In this document: positions 38,512 through 52,815 of the stretch, in pieces
Layout of the letters: each line of letters begins with the position of its first letter
Position numbering within the stretch: the stretch's first letter is position 1
Source: Lysobacterales bacterium
Lineage (GTDB): Bacteria; Pseudomonadota; Gammaproteobacteria; Xanthomonadales; SZUA-38
Length of the DNA stretch: 64,000 nucleotides
Direction of reading: 5' to 3'
Assembly: GCA_028285525.1 (NCBI GenBank)
Contig: JANQOZ010000103.1
Location: 186,001 to 250,000, forward strand
Translations under genes and position numbers: made by a program
Notes under the pieces: generated by a model
Databases searched by the model: none
The model's input: only the letters and a program-made list of their open reading frames with translations
Told to the model about the DNA's origin: nothing

Positions 38512-39720
38512 ATGAAACGGAAATCACTGTTACTGGTCGCCCTGCTCGCGATGCTCCTGGGCTCGCCGGTGCAGGGCCAGCAGGCGCTGCTGAAGGCGTT
38601 CGAGCTGACCGAGCTTGCGTCGGTCGACGACCGTGCGCTGAAGAATCTGACGCTTAGCGCCTACGGTCGGGAATTCTCTCTGGAACTCGAAGCCAACGAC
38701 GCGCTTCTCAGCTCGCTGTCGAGCGAGCATCGTGCCAAAATCCACCGCGCCGATCGATTCATGAAAGGCCGGTTAGCTGGGGTTCCAGGCTCATGGGTCA
38801 GACTCAACCGCATCAGCGGTCGCCTTTCCGGCGGCATTTTCGACGGCTCCGAGCTCTTCCTCGTCGACAGCGCCCGCAGCTTCCCCGAAGCGCTGGCTGC
38901 CGGCGCGAGCGCGGATCAGACGCTCGTATACCGCTTTGAGGATCTTGCGCTGAACACGCTGATCGACCACGGCGGCCTTACGTTCCAGAAAAAAATCGAG
39001 CGCCCGGTTGCCGACTACCGTACGTTTGTGCAGCACCTGCAGGCCATCGTCGCGATCAAAGGTGTCGCCATGATGGCGCTGCCGGTAACAATCGTCAGTG
39101 ACACGCAGTTCACCGATGAGCACGGCGCGGACACCGCGTCGGTTGTAGCCGGCCGGGTGAACTTTGTCGACGGCATCTACGCCTCACAGCTCGGTGTGGG
39201 CATTCAGCTCCTGCACCACGAGATCCTGACGGATAACGACGTACTGATCGAAACCAACGCCGGCGATCTGCTCGGCGGGCGCTTTAACAACAACAGCCTG
39301 GTGCAGCCGGGGTTTCGGCAGTTTATGCGGACCGGAGCAGGGAGCAATATCCCGTTCCAGGGCCTCGCGCACCTGTTTACCGGGCGCAACCTCGACGGGT
39401 CTACGGTGGGCGTTGCCTACCTCGGCGTGTTGTGCAGCCGCAGCTTCGGCTACGGCGTCAACGAAGATCGCAGCAGCGATACCAGCAGCGCACTGATTTT
39501 CGCCCATGAACTCGGGCACAACTTCAACTCGCCCCATGACGGGGAACGAGCGTGCGTCGACGAGACTTTTCGAGGCATCATGAACTCGCGATTGAACGGA
39601 TCTCAGCAGTTCAGCAATTGCAGCATCGACGAGATGGCTCAGGAGCTTGCGCAGGCCAGCTGCCTGGTCGAGATTCAGGACGCCAACGTGTTATTCGACG
39701 ACAGCTTTGAGATCGACTGA
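38512..39720 (+). CDS. Secreted ADAM/reprolysin-like zinc metalloprotease
   Basis: A 402-residue exported protease with a signal peptide (MKRKSLLLVALLAMLLGSPVQG). Residues about 22-180 look like a propeptide. The catalytic metzincin motif is HELGHNFNSPHD (three histidines, glutamate and the following Asp), and a Met-turn follows in GIMNSRL, the layout of family M12B (adamalysin). Cysteines near the end may form disulphides. The protein stops with a short LFDDSFEID tail. It could digest extracellular protein; its activation is unknown. A single gene. Confidence 0.88.
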   Translation: MKRKSLLLVALLAMLLGSPVQGQQALLKAFELTELASVDDRALKNLTLSAYGREFSLELEANDALLSSLSSEHRAKIHRADRFMKGRLAGVPGSWVRLNRISGRLSGGIFDGSELFLVDSARSFPEALAAGASADQTLVYRFEDLALNTLIDHGGLTFQKKIERPVADYRTFVQHLQAIVAIKGVAMMALPVTIVSDTQFTDEHGADTASVVAGRVNFVDGIYASQLGVGIQLLHHEILTDNDVLIETNAGDLLGGRFNNNSLVQPGFRQFMRTGAGSNIPFQGLAHLFTGRNLDGSTVGVAYLGVLCSRSFGYGVNEDRSSDTSSALIFAHELGHNFNSPHDGERACVDETFRGIMNSRLNGSQQFSNCSIDEMAQELAQASCLVEIQDANVLFDDSFEID

Positions 39721-44016: not shown

Positions 44017-44682
44017 TCAGCGAAACCGCCGGCCGATGTACCTCAACGTCGCACGAGTGGCAAAAGGCAGTGCTGCGAGGAGCCCGAGCGACAGCAGCAG
44101 CCCGGGATTGAGCAGGGCCGTCGGACTGAGTTCATCAACCGACTGCACCTGTGTGCCGAAATGGACCAGCAGCAGCAGCAGCGGAAACATGCCGCCCATG
44201 GTTGCGAGAAAGAAACGCCGCAGGTCGAGCGGCGTGAGCGCTGCAAGCAGGTTCAGCAGCCAAAACGGCACGACCGGGATCATCCGCAAGCCAAAGATAT
44301 AGAACGCACCGTCCGCCTCGATCCCTTTATTGATCTGAACCAGCTGGTCAGCGAAGCGCTGCTGAACCGGAGCGTGCAGCACGTAGCGCGACATGAGAAA
44401 CGCCAGGCTGCCGCCGCAAGTGCACGCGAGCAGCGTCAGGCCCAGCCCAAGCGCATGCCCGAACGTCATGCCGGCGATGACGGCCAGCACGCCGGTCACC
44501 GGCATCGACAGGGCCGTGCCAAGAAAACAGACGACAAAGAACACGCAGCTCGTGGCGACCGGCGCCTCAAGGTAGTGTGCCTGGAACGTCCGGGGGTCGA
44601 GGAGCTCTCGCCCACCCGCGAACATGTAGGCCAGCACGCTCAGCGCAACCAGTCCGATCATCGCCAGCTTTTTCCAGCCCAT
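44017..44682 (-). CDS. TVP38/TMEM64 family (DedA-like) membrane protein
   Basis: A 221-residue inner-membrane protein with about six hydrophobic segments. Family features are the GTALSMPVTGVLAVIAGMTFG and GGSLAFLMSRYV stretches, and the re-entrant segment GLRMIPVVPFWLLNLLAALT. Relatives in the DedA superfamily take part in lipid transbilayer movement and membrane maintenance. It ends a minus-strand pair with the larger alpha/beta hydrolase gene 9 bases upstream. The fusion protein encoded next to that gene is also lipid-related, which is suggestive. Confidence 0.88.
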   Translation of the reverse strand: MGWKKLAMIGLVALSVLAYMFAGGRELLDPRTFQAHYLEAPVATSCVFFVVCFLGTALSMPVTGVLAVIAGMTFGHALGLGLTLLACTCGGSLAFLMSRYVLHAPVQQRFADQLVQINKGIEADGAFYIFGLRMIPVVPFWLLNLLAALTPLDLRRFFLATMGGMFPLLLLLVHFGTQVQSVDELSPTALLNPGLLLSLGLLAALPFATRATLRYIGRRFR

Positions 44683-44691
44683 GGGCAGCGC

Positions 44692-46071
44692 TCAGGCCCG
44701 CTTCAGGATATCGGCAAACGCCAGCAGCGCCGTGTTGTCGTGGATCAACCCCAGCGGCACGGTGAAGTGGCCTCGATCGTACCGAAAGCGATTTCGGTCG
44801 GGAACGTTCCACAGGTCGAGCTGCGAGTCGACCAGCCTGTCCGGGGTCACCGTATCGCGCTCGCCAATCACGCTGACGATTCGATCGCCTGCCATGCAGG
44901 GCGCCGCCAGTGGATCGAGCTTCTCCAGCCATTCCTGCTCGGTGTCGCGATGCCAGCCGCGCTCCCGCATCGCCCCTCCGAGGTTCCAGATATCACTCAG
45001 GCTGCCGTCGAGCGCCGCCTCATACGTGTGCTGGCTGTGGGTCACCGCCAGCAGTGCGTCTGGCCGAAGGCGCTCGGGCCAGTCGTTTGCGCGGACCGCA
45101 ATGGCTTTGGCCGTTTGCGCGCCAAGGCTGCTGCCGCCGATGGCGACCGGCCCCGCGCTGGTGGCGCGGGCCCAGCCGATAATCGTGGCCCACTCGGCGT
45201 GCTGTGCTGCCAGAAAATCAAACATGCTGTTGGGGGTTGTGGACAGCAGCTGCTCGCCGCCGTAGTGGCCGGGCAGAACGCGCCGCCCGTGCCACGGCGC
45301 TTCGGGACGGATGACGCGAATCCCGCTCCGGGTCAGCTCCGTGACCTCATCGAGCAGCTGATGGTAGTGGTCAAACTCAACGCAGATCCCGTGACCAAAA
45401 ATCAACGTCGGCGGGTTGTCGACGCCCGTCGGTTCGTGCACCCGAGCGTAAACCTGGTCGTTCATCGCTGACGAGGGAGACGGAAAGCGAAGCCAGCGGT
45501 CGGAACCCGCTTTTGTAGGCAGCGCCCTGGACAGCTCTACCTCCGGCAGGGTGTCTGGCAGACTGAACAACGCCTCGAGCTTTTCTCCCTTCTCGCCAAA
45601 ACGTTCAGCCACCTTCGCCGGTGTCGGCGGATTCATCATGACGGAGGTGATCACCAGACGTCGCAGGGGCCTGAAAGCGCGTCGCGTGAGGTTGTAGGCA
45701 CTGCGAAAGTCCAGGCGCATTTCTTCAACGATCGGCAGGCGGCTTTTTTCCACCTCTTCATCGCCGAAGAAATACTCATGCCAGAGCTGCTCGGTGGAGA
45801 ACGCCTTCAGCCGGCAGCGCTCAAACTGCTCCAGCGCCCTGGCAATCCTGCGCCGCTGGTAACGATTCGGCGGATTCAGGGGCACGTGCCGGATGAACGC
45901 ATCGACGTCACCGTCAGCCGCCCGGGCCGCGGCCCAGAGTCGTGACAAGGGGAAAAACCAGTCCTGCAGCAGATACGCAATAACCCGATCGAGCCAGGGT
46001 CGTGCGACCATGCCACCCAGGCGTGAGCGGAGCAGGCCTAGCGACAGGTTATGGGTACGGGAGCCGGGCAT
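44692..46071 (-). CDS. Large alpha/beta-hydrolase protein (ABHD18/DUF2048-like)
   Basis: A 459-residue protein whose C-terminal half is an alpha/beta hydrolase: FGHGICVEF after the first strand, nucleophile elbow GGSSLGAQ, and a final histidine in DRGHFTVP. The N-terminal about 150 residues are arginine-rich and helical with no recognised domain, giving more length than a simple hydrolase; this resembles ABHD18-type proteins. Single or two-gene unit with TVP38. A lipid or ester substrate is conjectural. Confidence 0.78.
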   Translation of the reverse strand: MPGSRTHNLSLGLLRSRLGGMVARPWLDRVIAYLLQDWFFPLSRLWAAARAADGDVDAFIRHVPLNPPNRYQRRRIARALEQFERCRLKAFSTEQLWHEYFFGDEEVEKSRLPIVEEMRLDFRSAYNLTRRAFRPLRRLVITSVMMNPPTPAKVAERFGEKGEKLEALFSLPDTLPEVELSRALPTKAGSDRWLRFPSPSSAMNDQVYARVHEPTGVDNPPTLIFGHGICVEFDHYHQLLDEVTELTRSGIRVIRPEAPWHGRRVLPGHYGGEQLLSTTPNSMFDFLAAQHAEWATIIGWARATSAGPVAIGGSSLGAQTAKAIAVRANDWPERLRPDALLAVTHSQHTYEAALDGSLSDIWNLGGAMRERGWHRDTEQEWLEKLDPLAAPCMAGDRIVSVIGERDTVTPDRLVDSQLDLWNVPDRNRFRYDRGHFTVPLGLIHDNTALLAFADILKRA

Positions 46072-46177
46072 ATCATCATTTTACCCGACCGGTCGTCGCC
46101 AAGATGCGCACCGGCGAATTTTCCGCGCGGGCAGGCCGGGTGTATAACGTTAGGGTCCTGCGCTACGAGGCAACCGA

Positions 46178-49100
46178 TTGCAGCAAACCGCGTCGCTAGT
46201 GGAGCTTGTGTTGCCGTGGCTCGCGTGGGTCGCGGTTTTCCTGCTGGTTGGCTGGTGGCTTGTACGTCGCTGGGAATCGCAGCTCACCGCCAGGCAGTCC
46301 TACACGCTCAAGTTTCCGCTGTCGCCGATGGCTTTTCTGAACCGGCGCCTGATCATCGAAGGACTGGTGCAGGACCAGCAGGTGCAGGCGGCCATGAAAA
46401 GCCACGCGCAGCAGACCGGCGAGCACCTCGCCAGCGTCGAAAAGCGCGTGCGGCGCCAGGCTCATGAGCTGGTGCCGGCCTTCAAAGCGGTGTTTTACTT
46501 TTCGATCGGCTACTGGCTGGCGCGCCTCCTGCTGAGAACGATGTACCAGGTTCGCCTGGTCAGAGATGCCCGCGAGGAGTACGCCAAGATCCGCCCGGAC
46601 GCCACGGTGGTTCTCCTGATGAACCACCGGTCCAATATGGACGTTGTGCTGGTGAACTACCTGCTTGCCCGCCATTCCGCGGTCGCTCACGCGGCCGGCG
46701 AATGGGCGCGGCTCTGGCCGCTGCATCATCTGGTGCGCCTGGCCGGCAACTACGTGGTCGATCGGGATTCCAACGACCCCGTTTACCGGCTGGTGCTCAA
46801 ACGCTATGTACAGATGGCCGTCACGCACGGCATCCATCTGGCGATCTTTCCGGAAGGCAGTTTGACCCGCGACGGCCGCCTTCGGCCGTTGTCTTTTGGG
46901 CTGTTGAACTATGCCGCAACGGCCTCCTGGCCTGGTCTCGATCGAGACGTTGTGTTTATTCCCGTCAGCTTCAGCTACGACCAGGTGCCGGAACAGGAGC
47001 GGCTGGTCTTTGGCGATACCCGCGAGTTCGCCGACCGGGGGCGCCTGCACCTCCTCTGGGCCAGCCTGCGGTTTATCGGGGGTTTTCTGCGCTTGCCGTT
47101 TCGGCCTCGGGATGAACGCTACGGCTGGGCCTGCGCCACCTTTGGCCAGCCGCTGTCGCTTCGCAGCTGGCAGCGTTCGCAGGGCATCGATCTGAGAACC
47201 AGCCCCCGTGATGCCTTGCGCAGACACATCGGCGCGCTGGGCCAGCAGCTGATGGGAGAGGTGCTGCACAGCATGCCGGTGCTGCCCGTCCACCTGGTCG
47301 CCACTGCGCTCACCGAGCGTGACGACGCTTCGATGAAGCTGAATGCGCTGGAGGCACGTGTCGAGGAGCTTCGTGTGGCGGTTGAAGCAGCCGGCGCACC
47401 GGTCTTCGTCGATCCGGCCGCGGGAGGAAGTTTCACCGCGGAGGGACTGCACACGCTGGTCCAGGTTCAGGCGATCGAAGTTCCGGCTGAGGAGACGATT
47501 ACGGCCGTCCCAGCGCGGCTGGCGTTGCTGCACTATTACGCTCAAACGATAGCTCACTACCTTCCCGAGAGCCCTCCAGCAGCTGGCGGGGCGCTGCCGG
47601 CAAAACCCCGGAATCCGCGCAACTATCTCGCCACCGTCTACGAGTCATTTGCCCGGGCTCAGGAACGCACAGTGGACGACCAGGACTTTTTTGAACGTTT
47701 CTACCAGGAGTTCCTGTCCTCCTCTCCAGCGGTGTCCGAGCAGTTTTCCGGTACCGACATGTCGCAGCAGCAGCAGCATCTCAAAGCGTCTCTCAAGCAC
47801 ATGGTGGACTACTGCGCGAGCGGTACGCCGAGCGTGCGCCTGCGTCAGATGGCCCGAATGCACGGCCGCGGAGGCCGAGCGATTGCCGGCGATCTTTACG
47901 ACCTCTGGCTACGCAGTCTGATCAAGGCTCTGAGCCTCTACGACTCGGCGTTTGATCAACGCGTCGAGCTGTCCTGGCGCTCAGTCATGGCGCCCGGCAT
48001 CGACTACATGCGCAGCCAGTTCGATTACCCGGAAGAGCAATCGACTGTGCCGGTCTCGGACACACCGATCGTCAGCCAGGGGATCGCGCGCTGGGTGGAC
48101 CATTGGGCAGAGCGCGCCCCGGATCGCCCGGCGGTTAAGTCAGCGCAGCGGTCCCTCAGCTATGGTGAGCTGGCTGATGAAGCGGGTCGCCTGGCGGCCG
48201 GCCTGCACAGCCGCCTCGGCGTCAACAGCGGCGACCGCGTTGCGTTCCTGGCGGCCAACTGCGTTGAATTCATCGTGCTCTTATTCGCCTGCGCCCGTCT
48301 GGGCGCCGTGCTTGTTCCCATCAATTTTCGCTTAGCGACCGCTGAGCGGGAGCGCCTGGTGCAGCGCACCGAGTCCCGGGCTATCCTGCTGGATCGATCG
48401 CACGCCGATCAGCCTCTCACCGCCATTCCCGACTGCGTGCCGATTCACCTGGAAGACGCGCCGCCATCTTCGCCGGGCGTCAGCTATCGAGAACTCCTGC
48501 AGGTCCCCGGAGCCATGCGAACCAGTGACGGTAACCTGGATTCGCCGCTCCTGATCGTCTTTACCTCCGGCAGCACCGGTGATCCGAAGGGGGCGGTTCT
48601 GACTCAGGCAGCGGTTCAGTGCAACGCGCTGAACAGCCGGGTGATGCACGACATGACCCGCAACGATCACGTGGCAACCTGCCTCCCCTTCTTTCACGTG
48701 GGCGGCATCAACATTCAGACGCTTCCGGCCTTCCAGGTGGGCGCGTCGGTGACCATCTTCTCCCGCTTCGACCCTGAGCGATTTGTGGACTTTGTCGCCA
48801 GCGAGCGGCCGACGCTCACCGTGCTGGTGCCGGCGCAGATGCAAGTGCTCATGGATTTGCCGACCTGGCAGCGCTGCGATCTAAGCTCGCTGCGCATGGT
48901 CACCACCGGCTCGACGATTGTCAGCCAGGAGCTGATCCAGGCCTGGGCTGACAAGGGAGTGCCGGTCATTCAGGTATATGGCTGCACCGAATCCGGTCCC
49001 ATCGCTGCTCACCAGACCATCGAGGGGATCCGGTCCGGCTGGGCTACGGTGGGCCATGCCGCGCTCTACACCGAAGTCAGGGTGGCTGATGAGCAGGGTC

Positions 49101-49585
49101 AGCCTGCGGCCGTGGGCGTGGAGGGCGAGGTCTTGCTGCGCGGAGCCAATCTCGCCAGCCACTACTGGCGAGATGAATCGGCCACCCGGGAGGTCTTTCA
49201 GGACGGCTGGCTCCACACGGGGGATCTCGGCTACCTGGATCAAAACGGCCGCCTGCGGATCGTTGGGCGCAAAAAGCGTCTGATCATCTCCGGAGGCGAG
49301 AACATTCATCCCGCGGAGATCGAACAGGTCCTGGAGGCTCATGCCGGAGTGATCGAGGCGGCGGTGGTGGGGTTGAGCGACGACCAGTGGGGTGAGGTGC
49401 CGGTCGCGGTGGTGGTTATCACGGCTGACGGACCCGACGAGGCAGCGCTGAGACGACACCTGGATCAGCATCTGGGCCGTTACAAGCACCCGAACCGCAT
49501 CCTGTTTGTGGATGCCCTGCCGCGCACTGGACTGGACAAAATTGCCTACCCCGAAGTCCAGGAACTGATTAAGGGCGGCGCCTGA
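46178..49585 (+). CDS. Trifunctional fusion: PlsB-like acyltransferase, globin, AMP-forming acyl-CoA synthetase
   Basis: A 1135-residue membrane protein with three domains in order. First, a membrane segment (9-30) and a glycerolipid acyltransferase (about 45-380): NHRSNMD supplies the HxxxxD pair H150-D155, FPEGSLTR is at 224-231 and IPVSFSY at 261-267, the layout of PlsB/PlsC enzymes. Second, a globin fold (about 483-612): FFERFYQEFLSSSPAVSEQF with a CD1 phenylalanine at 523, a QQQ stretch at the distal position, and a candidate proximal histidine (H562 in MARMHGR). Third, an AMP-binding acyl-activating enzyme (about 630-1135): TSGSTGDPKG (796-805) and late GGENIHPAE. The start is TTG at 46178 with GAGG seven bases ahead. 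Confidence 0.9.
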   Translation: MQQTASLVELVLPWLAWVAVFLLVGWWLVRRWESQLTARQSYTLKFPLSPMAFLNRRLIIEGLVQDQQVQAAMKSHAQQTGEHLASVEKRVRRQAHELVPAFKAVFYFSIGYWLARLLLRTMYQVRLVRDAREEYAKIRPDATVVLLMNHRSNMDVVLVNYLLARHSAVAHAAGEWARLWPLHHLVRLAGNYVVDRDSNDPVYRLVLKRYVQMAVTHGIHLAIFPEGSLTRDGRLRPLSFGLLNYAATASWPGLDRDVVFIPVSFSYDQVPEQERLVFGDTREFADRGRLHLLWASLRFIGGFLRLPFRPRDERYGWACATFGQPLSLRSWQRSQGIDLRTSPRDALRRHIGALGQQLMGEVLHSMPVLPVHLVATALTERDDASMKLNALEARVEELRVAVEAAGAPVFVDPAAGGSFTAEGLHTLVQVQAIEVPAEETITAVPARLALLHYYAQTIAHYLPESPPAAGGALPAKPRNPRNYLATVYESFARAQERTVDDQDFFERFYQEFLSSSPAVSEQFSGTDMSQQQQHLKASLKHMVDYCASGTPSVRLRQMARMHGRGGRAIAGDLYDLWLRSLIKALSLYDSAFDQRVELSWRSVMAPGIDYMRSQFDYPEEQSTVPVSDTPIVSQGIARWVDHWAERAPDRPAVKSAQRSLSYGELADEAGRLAAGLHSRLGVNSGDRVAFLAANCVEFIVLLFACARLGAVLVPINFRLATAERERLVQRTESRAILLDRSHADQPLTAIPDCVPIHLEDAPPSSPGVSYRELLQVPGAMRTSDGNLDSPLLIVFTSGSTGDPKGAVLTQAAVQCNALNSRVMHDMTRNDHVATCLPFFHVGGINIQTLPAFQVGASVTIFSRFDPERFVDFVASERPTLTVLVPAQMQVLMDLPTWQRCDLSSLRMVTTGSTIVSQELIQAWADKGVPVIQVYGCTESGPIAAHQTIEGIRSGWATVGHAALYTEVRVADEQGQPAAVGVEGEVLLRGANLASHYWRDESATREVFQDGWLHTGDLGYLDQNGRLRIVGRKKRLIISGGENIHPAEIEQVLEAHAGVIEAAVVGLSDDQWGEVPVAVVVITADGPDEAALRRHLDQHLGRYKHPNRILFVDALPRTGLDKIAYPEVQELIKGGA

Positions 49586-51820: not shown

Positions 51821-52189
51821 TCATGGGCGCAAGTCGCTAAGGTGGCACGCGATGCATTGTCGCACTGGACCGCTGACCTTGCCGGCAGCAGCTTCCTTTT
51901 CGTGGCAGCCGCGACAAAAGTCGTGGAACTGCGGTTCCAGCAGGCCGCTGACCGACGTGTCGGACACGTGACAGTGCATACACGGCTCGCCGCCGGTGTC
52001 ATCGACAAAGTTGTGGTGACAGTCCATACATCGAGTCTCGGTGTGGTCACCGTGTGCAAACGTCATGGGCAGGATCACTTCGGGGCTGCCGTAGTAGTGG
52101 GCCTTTTCCGGGTATGCGCTCGCAAACGGAGTCCCGTAGGTCAGCAGCCAGACCACGATGAGTGTCAGCAATACGAGAAGCGTCTTCAC
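51821..52189 (-). CDS. Membrane-anchored tetraheme cytochrome c (c3-like)
   Basis: A 122-residue exported cytochrome with four heme motifs, CMDCH (54-58), CMHCH (70-74), CRGCH (92-96) and CIACH (112-116), plus extra histidines such as FAHGDHT and CHHNF that can act as second axial ligands. The N-terminus is a single hydrophobic segment (VKTLLVLLTLIVVWLLTYG), a signal or anchor. The GTG start at 52189 overlaps the stop codon of the upstream cytochrome b-like gene (GTGA). A much longer open frame runs to 52594 in the same phase but lies inside the upstream gene and is not used. Confidence 0.9.
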   Translation of the reverse strand: MKTLLVLLTLIVVWLLTYGTPFASAYPEKAHYYGSPEVILPMTFAHGDHTETRCMDCHHNFVDDTGGEPCMHCHVSDTSVSGLLEPQFHDFCRGCHEKEAAAGKVSGPVRQCIACHLSDLRP

Positions 52190-52815
52190 AGGCCGAGATT
52201 TCTGATCGCGGAGAAAGCCAGTGCCGCCAGCAGCGACATGCTCAGCAGAGTCACTGGCGTTGAACGACGCAACGGAGGCAGCCAACGCCAAAGGCCGCCG
52301 CCGGCAAGCACCAGCAGCAGCAGCGTCGCCAGCGCGGCAAGCTGCCAGCCGTTTCTGAGGTAATAACCGCTGAACACCACGTGGTGCGCGCTGAGCAGCA
52401 CAACGGCGGCGCCTAACACTCGGTGCCAATACCGGAATACCCCGTAGCTCCGATGGACTCGGGCCCGGGTCGGCATCTGGGCGAGCATCATCAGGACAAA
52501 CAACAGCAGCACCGACAGGAGGCCGGTCCACATGTAGGCCGGAGCGCCGGGCTTGATGTACTCCAAGGCAGCAGGGTCCGCGAGCAAGAACCACAGCGCG
52601 TGTAACAGAATAACCGCCAGCACGGCGTAGCTGAGCCGCTGGTGCGCTCGAACGTCGCGGCGGGCAATGCCCGGAATAGACAGGTACAGCAGCCCCGCGA
52701 GCGCGGCGAAACCCAATCCGTTATCGGCATCCCAGGCCCAGCCCGCTCCGAAGGTAGGCACGGCCAAAAAGGTCAACCCCAGAACAACGAGGAGAAAGAC
52801 CGCGAGCAGCTGCAC
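52186..52815 (-). CDS. Ferric-reductase-like/cytochrome b-type membrane protein
   Basis: A 209-residue protein with about six transmembrane helices. Histidines sit at helix ends in pairs suited to heme b or quinone binding (VRAHQRLSYAVLAVILLHALW, FRYWHRVLG, LLSAHHVVFSGYY). This pattern resembles the ferric-reductase-like transmembrane domain (YedZ/NOX type). It is the first gene of a unit with the tetraheme cytochrome and the VIT1 transporter, so electrons likely pass between membrane and periplasm here. The GTG start at 52815 has AGGGA five bases ahead. Confidence 0.82.
   Translation of the reverse strand: MQLLAVFLLVVLGLTFLAVPTFGAGWAWDADNGLGFAALAGLLYLSIPGIARRDVRAHQRLSYAVLAVILLHALWFLLADPAALEYIKPGAPAYMWTGLLSVLLLFVLMMLAQMPTRARVHRSYGVFRYWHRVLGAAVVLLSAHHVVFSGYYLRNGWQLAALATLLLLVLAGGGLWRWLPPLRRSTPVTLLSMSLLAALAFSAIRNLGL

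Follow-up and report, generated by a model that had tools for sequence, protein, structure and literature searches.

In Escherichia coli, Aas places an acyltransferase and then an AMP-forming synthetase in one polypeptide chain. Aas-type fusions (E. coli Aas; NF006386/NF005291, acyl-[ACP]--phospholipid O-acyltransferases of about 1140 aa) use a PlsC-type acyltransferase and contain no globin. Globins joined to an effector or enzyme occur in flavohaemoglobins, globin-coupled sensors (GCS), the cyanobacterial NOS-globin (9q05) and the Hell's Gate Roadblock/LC7 globin (3wfw), and none of the globin chimaeras compared has a lipid-synthesis partner. PA3967 of Pseudomonas aeruginosa (PDB 1TU9) is a stand-alone, single-domain 3/3 globin of about 140 aa. 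The role of PA3967-type globins has apparently not been worked out in the open-access literature, which also yielded no description of a globin-GPAT or globin-synthetase fusion. Here, we describe a gene that encodes a PlsB-type GPAT, a PA3967-type globin and an acyl-CoA synthetase, in that order, which is a new globin-chimaera architecture. It shares the acyltransferase-synthetase order of the Aas-type fusions, but it is not an Aas bifunctional enzyme, given its PlsB-type N-terminus and interposed globin, and its similarity to NF006386 and NF005291 is weak (E 2e-6 and 2e-5). Nor is it a globin-coupled sensor, because its globin is internal and of the PA3967 type, not an N-terminal GCS/protoglobin with a C-terminal transmitter. 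Pfam finds no FAD/NAD reductase domain in the protein, which lacks the C-terminal reductase of a flavohaemoglobin.

The fusion gene lies at 46178-49585 (+) of the window, the whole 64,000-nucleotide stretch of a Lysobacterales genome analysed here, and encodes 1135 aa in a single uninterrupted frame starting with TTG. A GAGG at 46167-46170 (+), read from the sequence as the likely ribosome binding site, ends 7 nt upstream of the TTG, in agreement with the sequence-only reading of one gene with its own ribosome binding site. Its three modules are the GPAT (residues 1-462), the globin (about 480-616) and the synthetase (about 635-1131). The translation places a Pro/Ala/Gly-rich linker between GPAT and globin (47564-47614, +) and another linker between globin and synthetase (48026-48079, +), and pLDDT in the full-length model is low at residues 465-500 and, with the globin rows absent from its alignment, at 578-631. 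These rows were left out because the combined alignment (A3) misplaced them, so we do not interpret the globin part or the packing of that model (pTM 0.54, domain packing unreliable). The 3.4 kb are in frame with all motifs intact, codon use is native, uniform and continuous over the three modules, GC is flat along the gene and the site sits within a 251-kb contig, in line with the earlier statement that the gene is not an assembly join of separate genes. That the three modules form one gene is close to certain.

The N-terminal module (46178-47563, +) is identified by Pfam, alignment and profile as a short PlsB-like GPAT, and it carries an N-terminal membrane-anchor helix. Pfam matches are Acyltransferase (PF01553) at residues 137-265 (6.5e-16) and GPAT_C at 302-461 (3.4e-14), the latter representing part of the GPAT C-terminal region. 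In a 17-row alignment (A1), N149, H150, D155, E226 and G227 are invariant, as is the acyltransferase motif NHRSNMD (H150...D155; 46622-46642, +) except for M154, and the fusion keeps every invariant residue of this 17-member family, including the NHxxxxD and FPEG-type motifs. The family profile matches the solved GPATs 9vuq and human GPAT1 (8e4y). The acyltransferase core is common to the module, PlsB and mitochondrial GPAT1, as is a portion of the C-terminal GPAT region; unlike PlsB, the module is a short form of about 480 aa and scores 92.6 bits against the 618.5-bit cut-off of the PlsB equivalog TIGR03703 (model positions 204-609 of 799). An ordinary PlsB is encoded elsewhere in the same genome (G000:C2:6509). 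Of the PlsB/PlsC layout originally proposed for this HxxxxD acyltransferase, the PlsB/GPAT half is thus retained and the PlsC/Aas half dropped on Pfam and family scores. The C-terminal module (residues 635-1131; 48080-49570, +) is an acyl-CoA synthetase of the ANL superfamily, recognised by its TSGSTGDPKG loop, YGCTES, GRKKRLIISGGENI and Lys1121. As anticipated for an AMP-forming acyl-activating enzyme, it matches AMP-binding (PF00501, residues 641-997, 1.3e-79) and AMP-binding_C (PF13193, residues 1047-1121, 7.8e-20), and it can be aligned over its full length with acyl-CoA synthetases of known structure (best 8weu, E 9e-87). Both enzyme modules look active as far as their sequences can tell, the nucleotide loop and catalytic Lys1121 of the synthetase being kept.

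Between them, residues 480-616 (47615-48025, +) form a 3/3 globin domain with helices A-H of the PA3967/1TU9 type, as judged by phmmer, profile and model. Pfam and NCBIfam searches of the fusion protein miss it (Bac_globin E 0.02, under the Pfam cut-off), a negative answer that we reject because phmmer and structure both point to a globin. The proposed globin-family HMM check therefore splits, with Pfam on the fusion below cut-off and the matches to 1TU9 significant, both by phmmer against PDB sequences (E 9.2e-20) and with a 42-member family profile (2.4e-41). The same profile matches Hell's Gate globins (5e-12 to 7e-10), flavohaemoglobin (5e-10) and Vitreoscilla Hb (2e-6); PF00042 is matched by 32 of the 42 members and Protoglobin by only 2. 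The AlphaFold model of the globin (pLDDT 92.4) contains helices A, B, C, E, F, G and H and superposes on 1TU9 with a TM-score of 0.93 by target length and an rmsd of 1.3 A (Foldseek), or a Z of 21.7 and an rmsd of 1.3 A over 131 residues (VIA). The stretch of about 130 residues first singled out for its helical pattern is thus a globin on both sequence and structure, and clearly not a coincidental helical linker.

The haem pocket is conserved as well. His562 (47861-47863, +), the predicted proximal F8 histidine, is invariant in the 42 sequences and lies at the end of helix F in the model, and Phe523 (47744-47746, +), the CD1 phenylalanine, is conserved in more than 90% of them and aligns with the 1TU9 Phe; both had been named in the sequence-only reading. 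Gln531 (47768-47770, +), in helix E of the model and also more than 90% conserved, is the probable distal E7 residue, and Tyr509 (47702-47704, +; invariant Y36 of alignment A2) lies in the distal pocket at position 10 of helix B. By their spacing against Vitreoscilla Hb, we take these residues to be TyrB10, PheCD1, GlnE7 and HisF8. Invariant across the 42 homologues, besides Tyr509 and His562, are Arg497, Phe508, Trp577, Asp589 and Trp600. Sequence and model together indicate that the middle module is a genuine haem-type 3/3 globin and a putative haem binder, and the initial domain reading, of one gene that encodes an acyltransferase, a globin and an AMP-forming synthetase, has full support. 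PA3967, its best sequence and structure match, shares the fold and haem-pocket residues, whereas the fused globin is internal, between two enzymes. It could still be a non-sensing spacer or assembly domain that positions the enzymes or drives dimerisation, its haem being structural or lost. Globins often dimerise, this one is diverged (31-40% identity to its best relatives) and linkers flank it on both sides, but a pure spacer would not be expected to keep all four pocket residues, and such a role makes no sense for the globin gene found beside unfused genes in a Woeseiaceae genome. We regard a spacer as improbable.

That genome, the draft of Woeseiaceae bacterium Ww312, carries the same hydrolase, GPAT, synthetase and globin as four adjacent, separate genes. 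The locus spans the end of JAHEFF010000024.1 and an overlapping contig (L127 and L223) with a 121-base exact end common to both, and the synthetase gene runs across the junction onto the second contig. Hydrolase and GPAT genes overlap by a 4-base stop/start (GTGA), as do GPAT and synthetase genes (ATGA). The PA3967-type globin gene is convergent with the synthetase gene, their stops 8 bp apart; lying on the opposite strand, it is not co-transcribed with the enzyme genes. It is the one globin in Ww312 that matches the fused globin at E <= 0.001, and we estimate the probability of its adjoining this operon by chance at roughly 1 in 1500 (for a single gene in 3.6 Mb of genome and with no correction for the 20 genomes examined). 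The Ww312 synthetase is the best match to that of the fusion (48% identity). Fusion and Woeseiaceae genes pair in the synthetase tree (98/92), in the GPAT tree (99/95, flagged as long branches meeting) and in the globin tree (90/32, the SH-aLRT being weak, inside a 97/93 clade of five). Synthetase genes also lie directly beside short GPAT genes in two further genomes (L116 and L139). Because its modules also cluster as unfused genes, the finding has firmer support than an isolated fusion would have, and we hold with middling confidence, as part of the best explanation, that the fusion gene arose by the joining of a pre-existing gene neighbourhood. Fused in one gene and side by side as separate genes in another bacterium, the modules suggest a link between haem chemistry and the assembly of membrane lipids.

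No second fused copy was found in 60 relatives, in 369 class, 398 order and 398 phylum genomes, or among the best 80 loci that were read when the contigs of 84,980 species' genomes were scanned with the GPAT profile as the pattern. A globin-only contig scan gave no matches, and plasmid tblastn returned only matches of 23-35% identity, mostly annotated globin. Proteins 30-43% identical to the N-terminal module are encoded on their own and measure about 480 aa, and PA3967-type globins in the inspected genomes stand alone. The expectation that the same domain order would recur thus holds only in that, in the Woeseiaceae genome, separate genes for the three modules adjoin one another. Other candidates were set aside: a 1175-aa frame in G272, which resembled a second fusion, is a stop-to-stop read-through of a roughly 470-aa protein, long frames with globin in G412 and G126 encode globin-PAS-methyl-accepting proteins, and the globin of G074 stands alone after trimming. 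Globin-PAS-PAS-methyl-accepting chemotaxis-type proteins (L091 and L092) form a globin chimaera distinct from the fusion gene. A single occurrence in a draft genome, with neither the fusion nor the neighbouring hydrolase in the one same-genus genome examined (G001), is what a chance fusion or an assembly error joining unrelated genes would leave. However, 3.4 kb in frame with intact motifs and uniform codon use, inside a 251-kb contig, argue against this, and an accidental join would not be expected to find the tree partners of all its modules in one Woeseiaceae locus. We consider such an accident highly improbable.

Divergent from the fusion gene lies a gene for an alpha/beta-hydrolase of about 460 aa (44692-46071, -), recognised by a weak Abhydrolase_6 Pfam match only and homologous to the Woeseiaceae hydrolase (44%). 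Downstream of it, 44017-44682 (-) encodes a VTT-domain (DedA/TMEM41B-type) membrane protein. Genes of the hydrolase family recur next to short GPAT genes in alpha- and gammaproteobacteria; eight loci outside the window show this arrangement, and two genomes of the window's order, G440 and G475, carry a hydrolase-short GPAT-VTT operon (L233:7213-10751 and L234:7336-10892). The VTT protein of the window matches that of the operon at 42%. The hydrolase of the window is 64-69% identical to those of G440 and G475, whereas for the GPATs the figure is only about 34-36%. VTT/DedA relatives, TMEM41B among them, are discussed as phospholipid scramblases. As a whole, the gene setting looks like membrane-lipid synthesis or remodelling.

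This setting is shared by another explanation, in which the globin is no gas switch but binds or treats acyl chains, through lipid hydroperoxide reduction or scavenging of NO/ROS in the vicinity of unsaturated acyl-CoA, within a deacylation-reacylation cycle that includes the hydrolase and the VTT protein. A hydrolase gene next to the GPAT gene, as seen in the window and at eight further loci, resembles membrane-lipid remodelling, and in G440 and G475 the VTT gene belongs to the operon. Lipid binding is known in globins of this lineage: oleate binds to Hell's Gate globin-I with micromolar affinity and a haem change (PMC11203436), and lipid binding by E. coli flavohaemoglobin is the subject of papers as cited in PMC1457004. 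The Hell's Gate precedent makes fatty-acid binding near the haem a real possibility, and it counts in favour of the preferred reading given below as well. On the other side, Hell's Gate globin-I formed no lipid peroxides from phospholipids (PMC11203436), the hydrolase, with its weak Abhydrolase_6 match, has no assigned substrate, and no reductase partner is fused, so that to act as an NO dioxygenase the globin would have to draw electrons from an external donor. We rate lipid handling or repair as unlikely, though less so than a spacer, and favour gas or redox gating because the haem-pocket residues are kept and a reductase is absent.

The reading that we prefer, and judge about evenly poised, is that a fused gene neighbourhood encodes a bifunctional glycerolipid enzyme, anchored in the membrane, whose internal haem globin gates flux. 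The C-terminal synthetase would convert free fatty acid to acyl-CoA with which the N-terminal GPAT would acylate glycerol-3-phosphate, or a similar acceptor, yielding lysophosphatidate. The globin, held between the enzymes on flexible linkers, would bind haem, and its ligand or redox state (O2, NO or an acyl chain near the haem) may modulate lipid flux. Enzyme activities, haem binding, direction of channelling and gating are here what we infer. Most likely, the putative haem globin regulates or protects the flux from fatty acid through acyl-CoA to lysophosphatidate; the O2, NO or redox switch on lipid assembly suggested at the outset is a plausible hypothesis. More tentatively, a haem globin may directly control bacterial glycerolipid synthesis or remodelling: the GPAT/acyl-CoA synthetase would be gated by O2, NO, redox state or a lipid ligand and would derive from a larger hydrolase-GPAT-synthetase-globin-VTT locus of separate genes. 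With a GPAT and an acyl-CoA synthetase as fused or neighbouring partners, PA3967-type globins gain a concrete, testable role that would connect membrane-lipid supply with haem ligands or with the binding of acyl chains, and the fusion allows ligand state and enzyme rate to be measured together in a single protein.

Elsewhere in the window, 51821-52594 (-) encodes a protein with a class III cytochrome c domain, next to a gene of the VIT1 family and one for a PHO4-type phosphate transporter, and 38512-39720 (+) a bacterial M12B reprolysin-like zinc metallopeptidase. Long antisense open frames lie opposite genes throughout the window, for example 46196-47557 (-); they are an effect of high GC, and stop-to-stop lengths are inflated accordingly.
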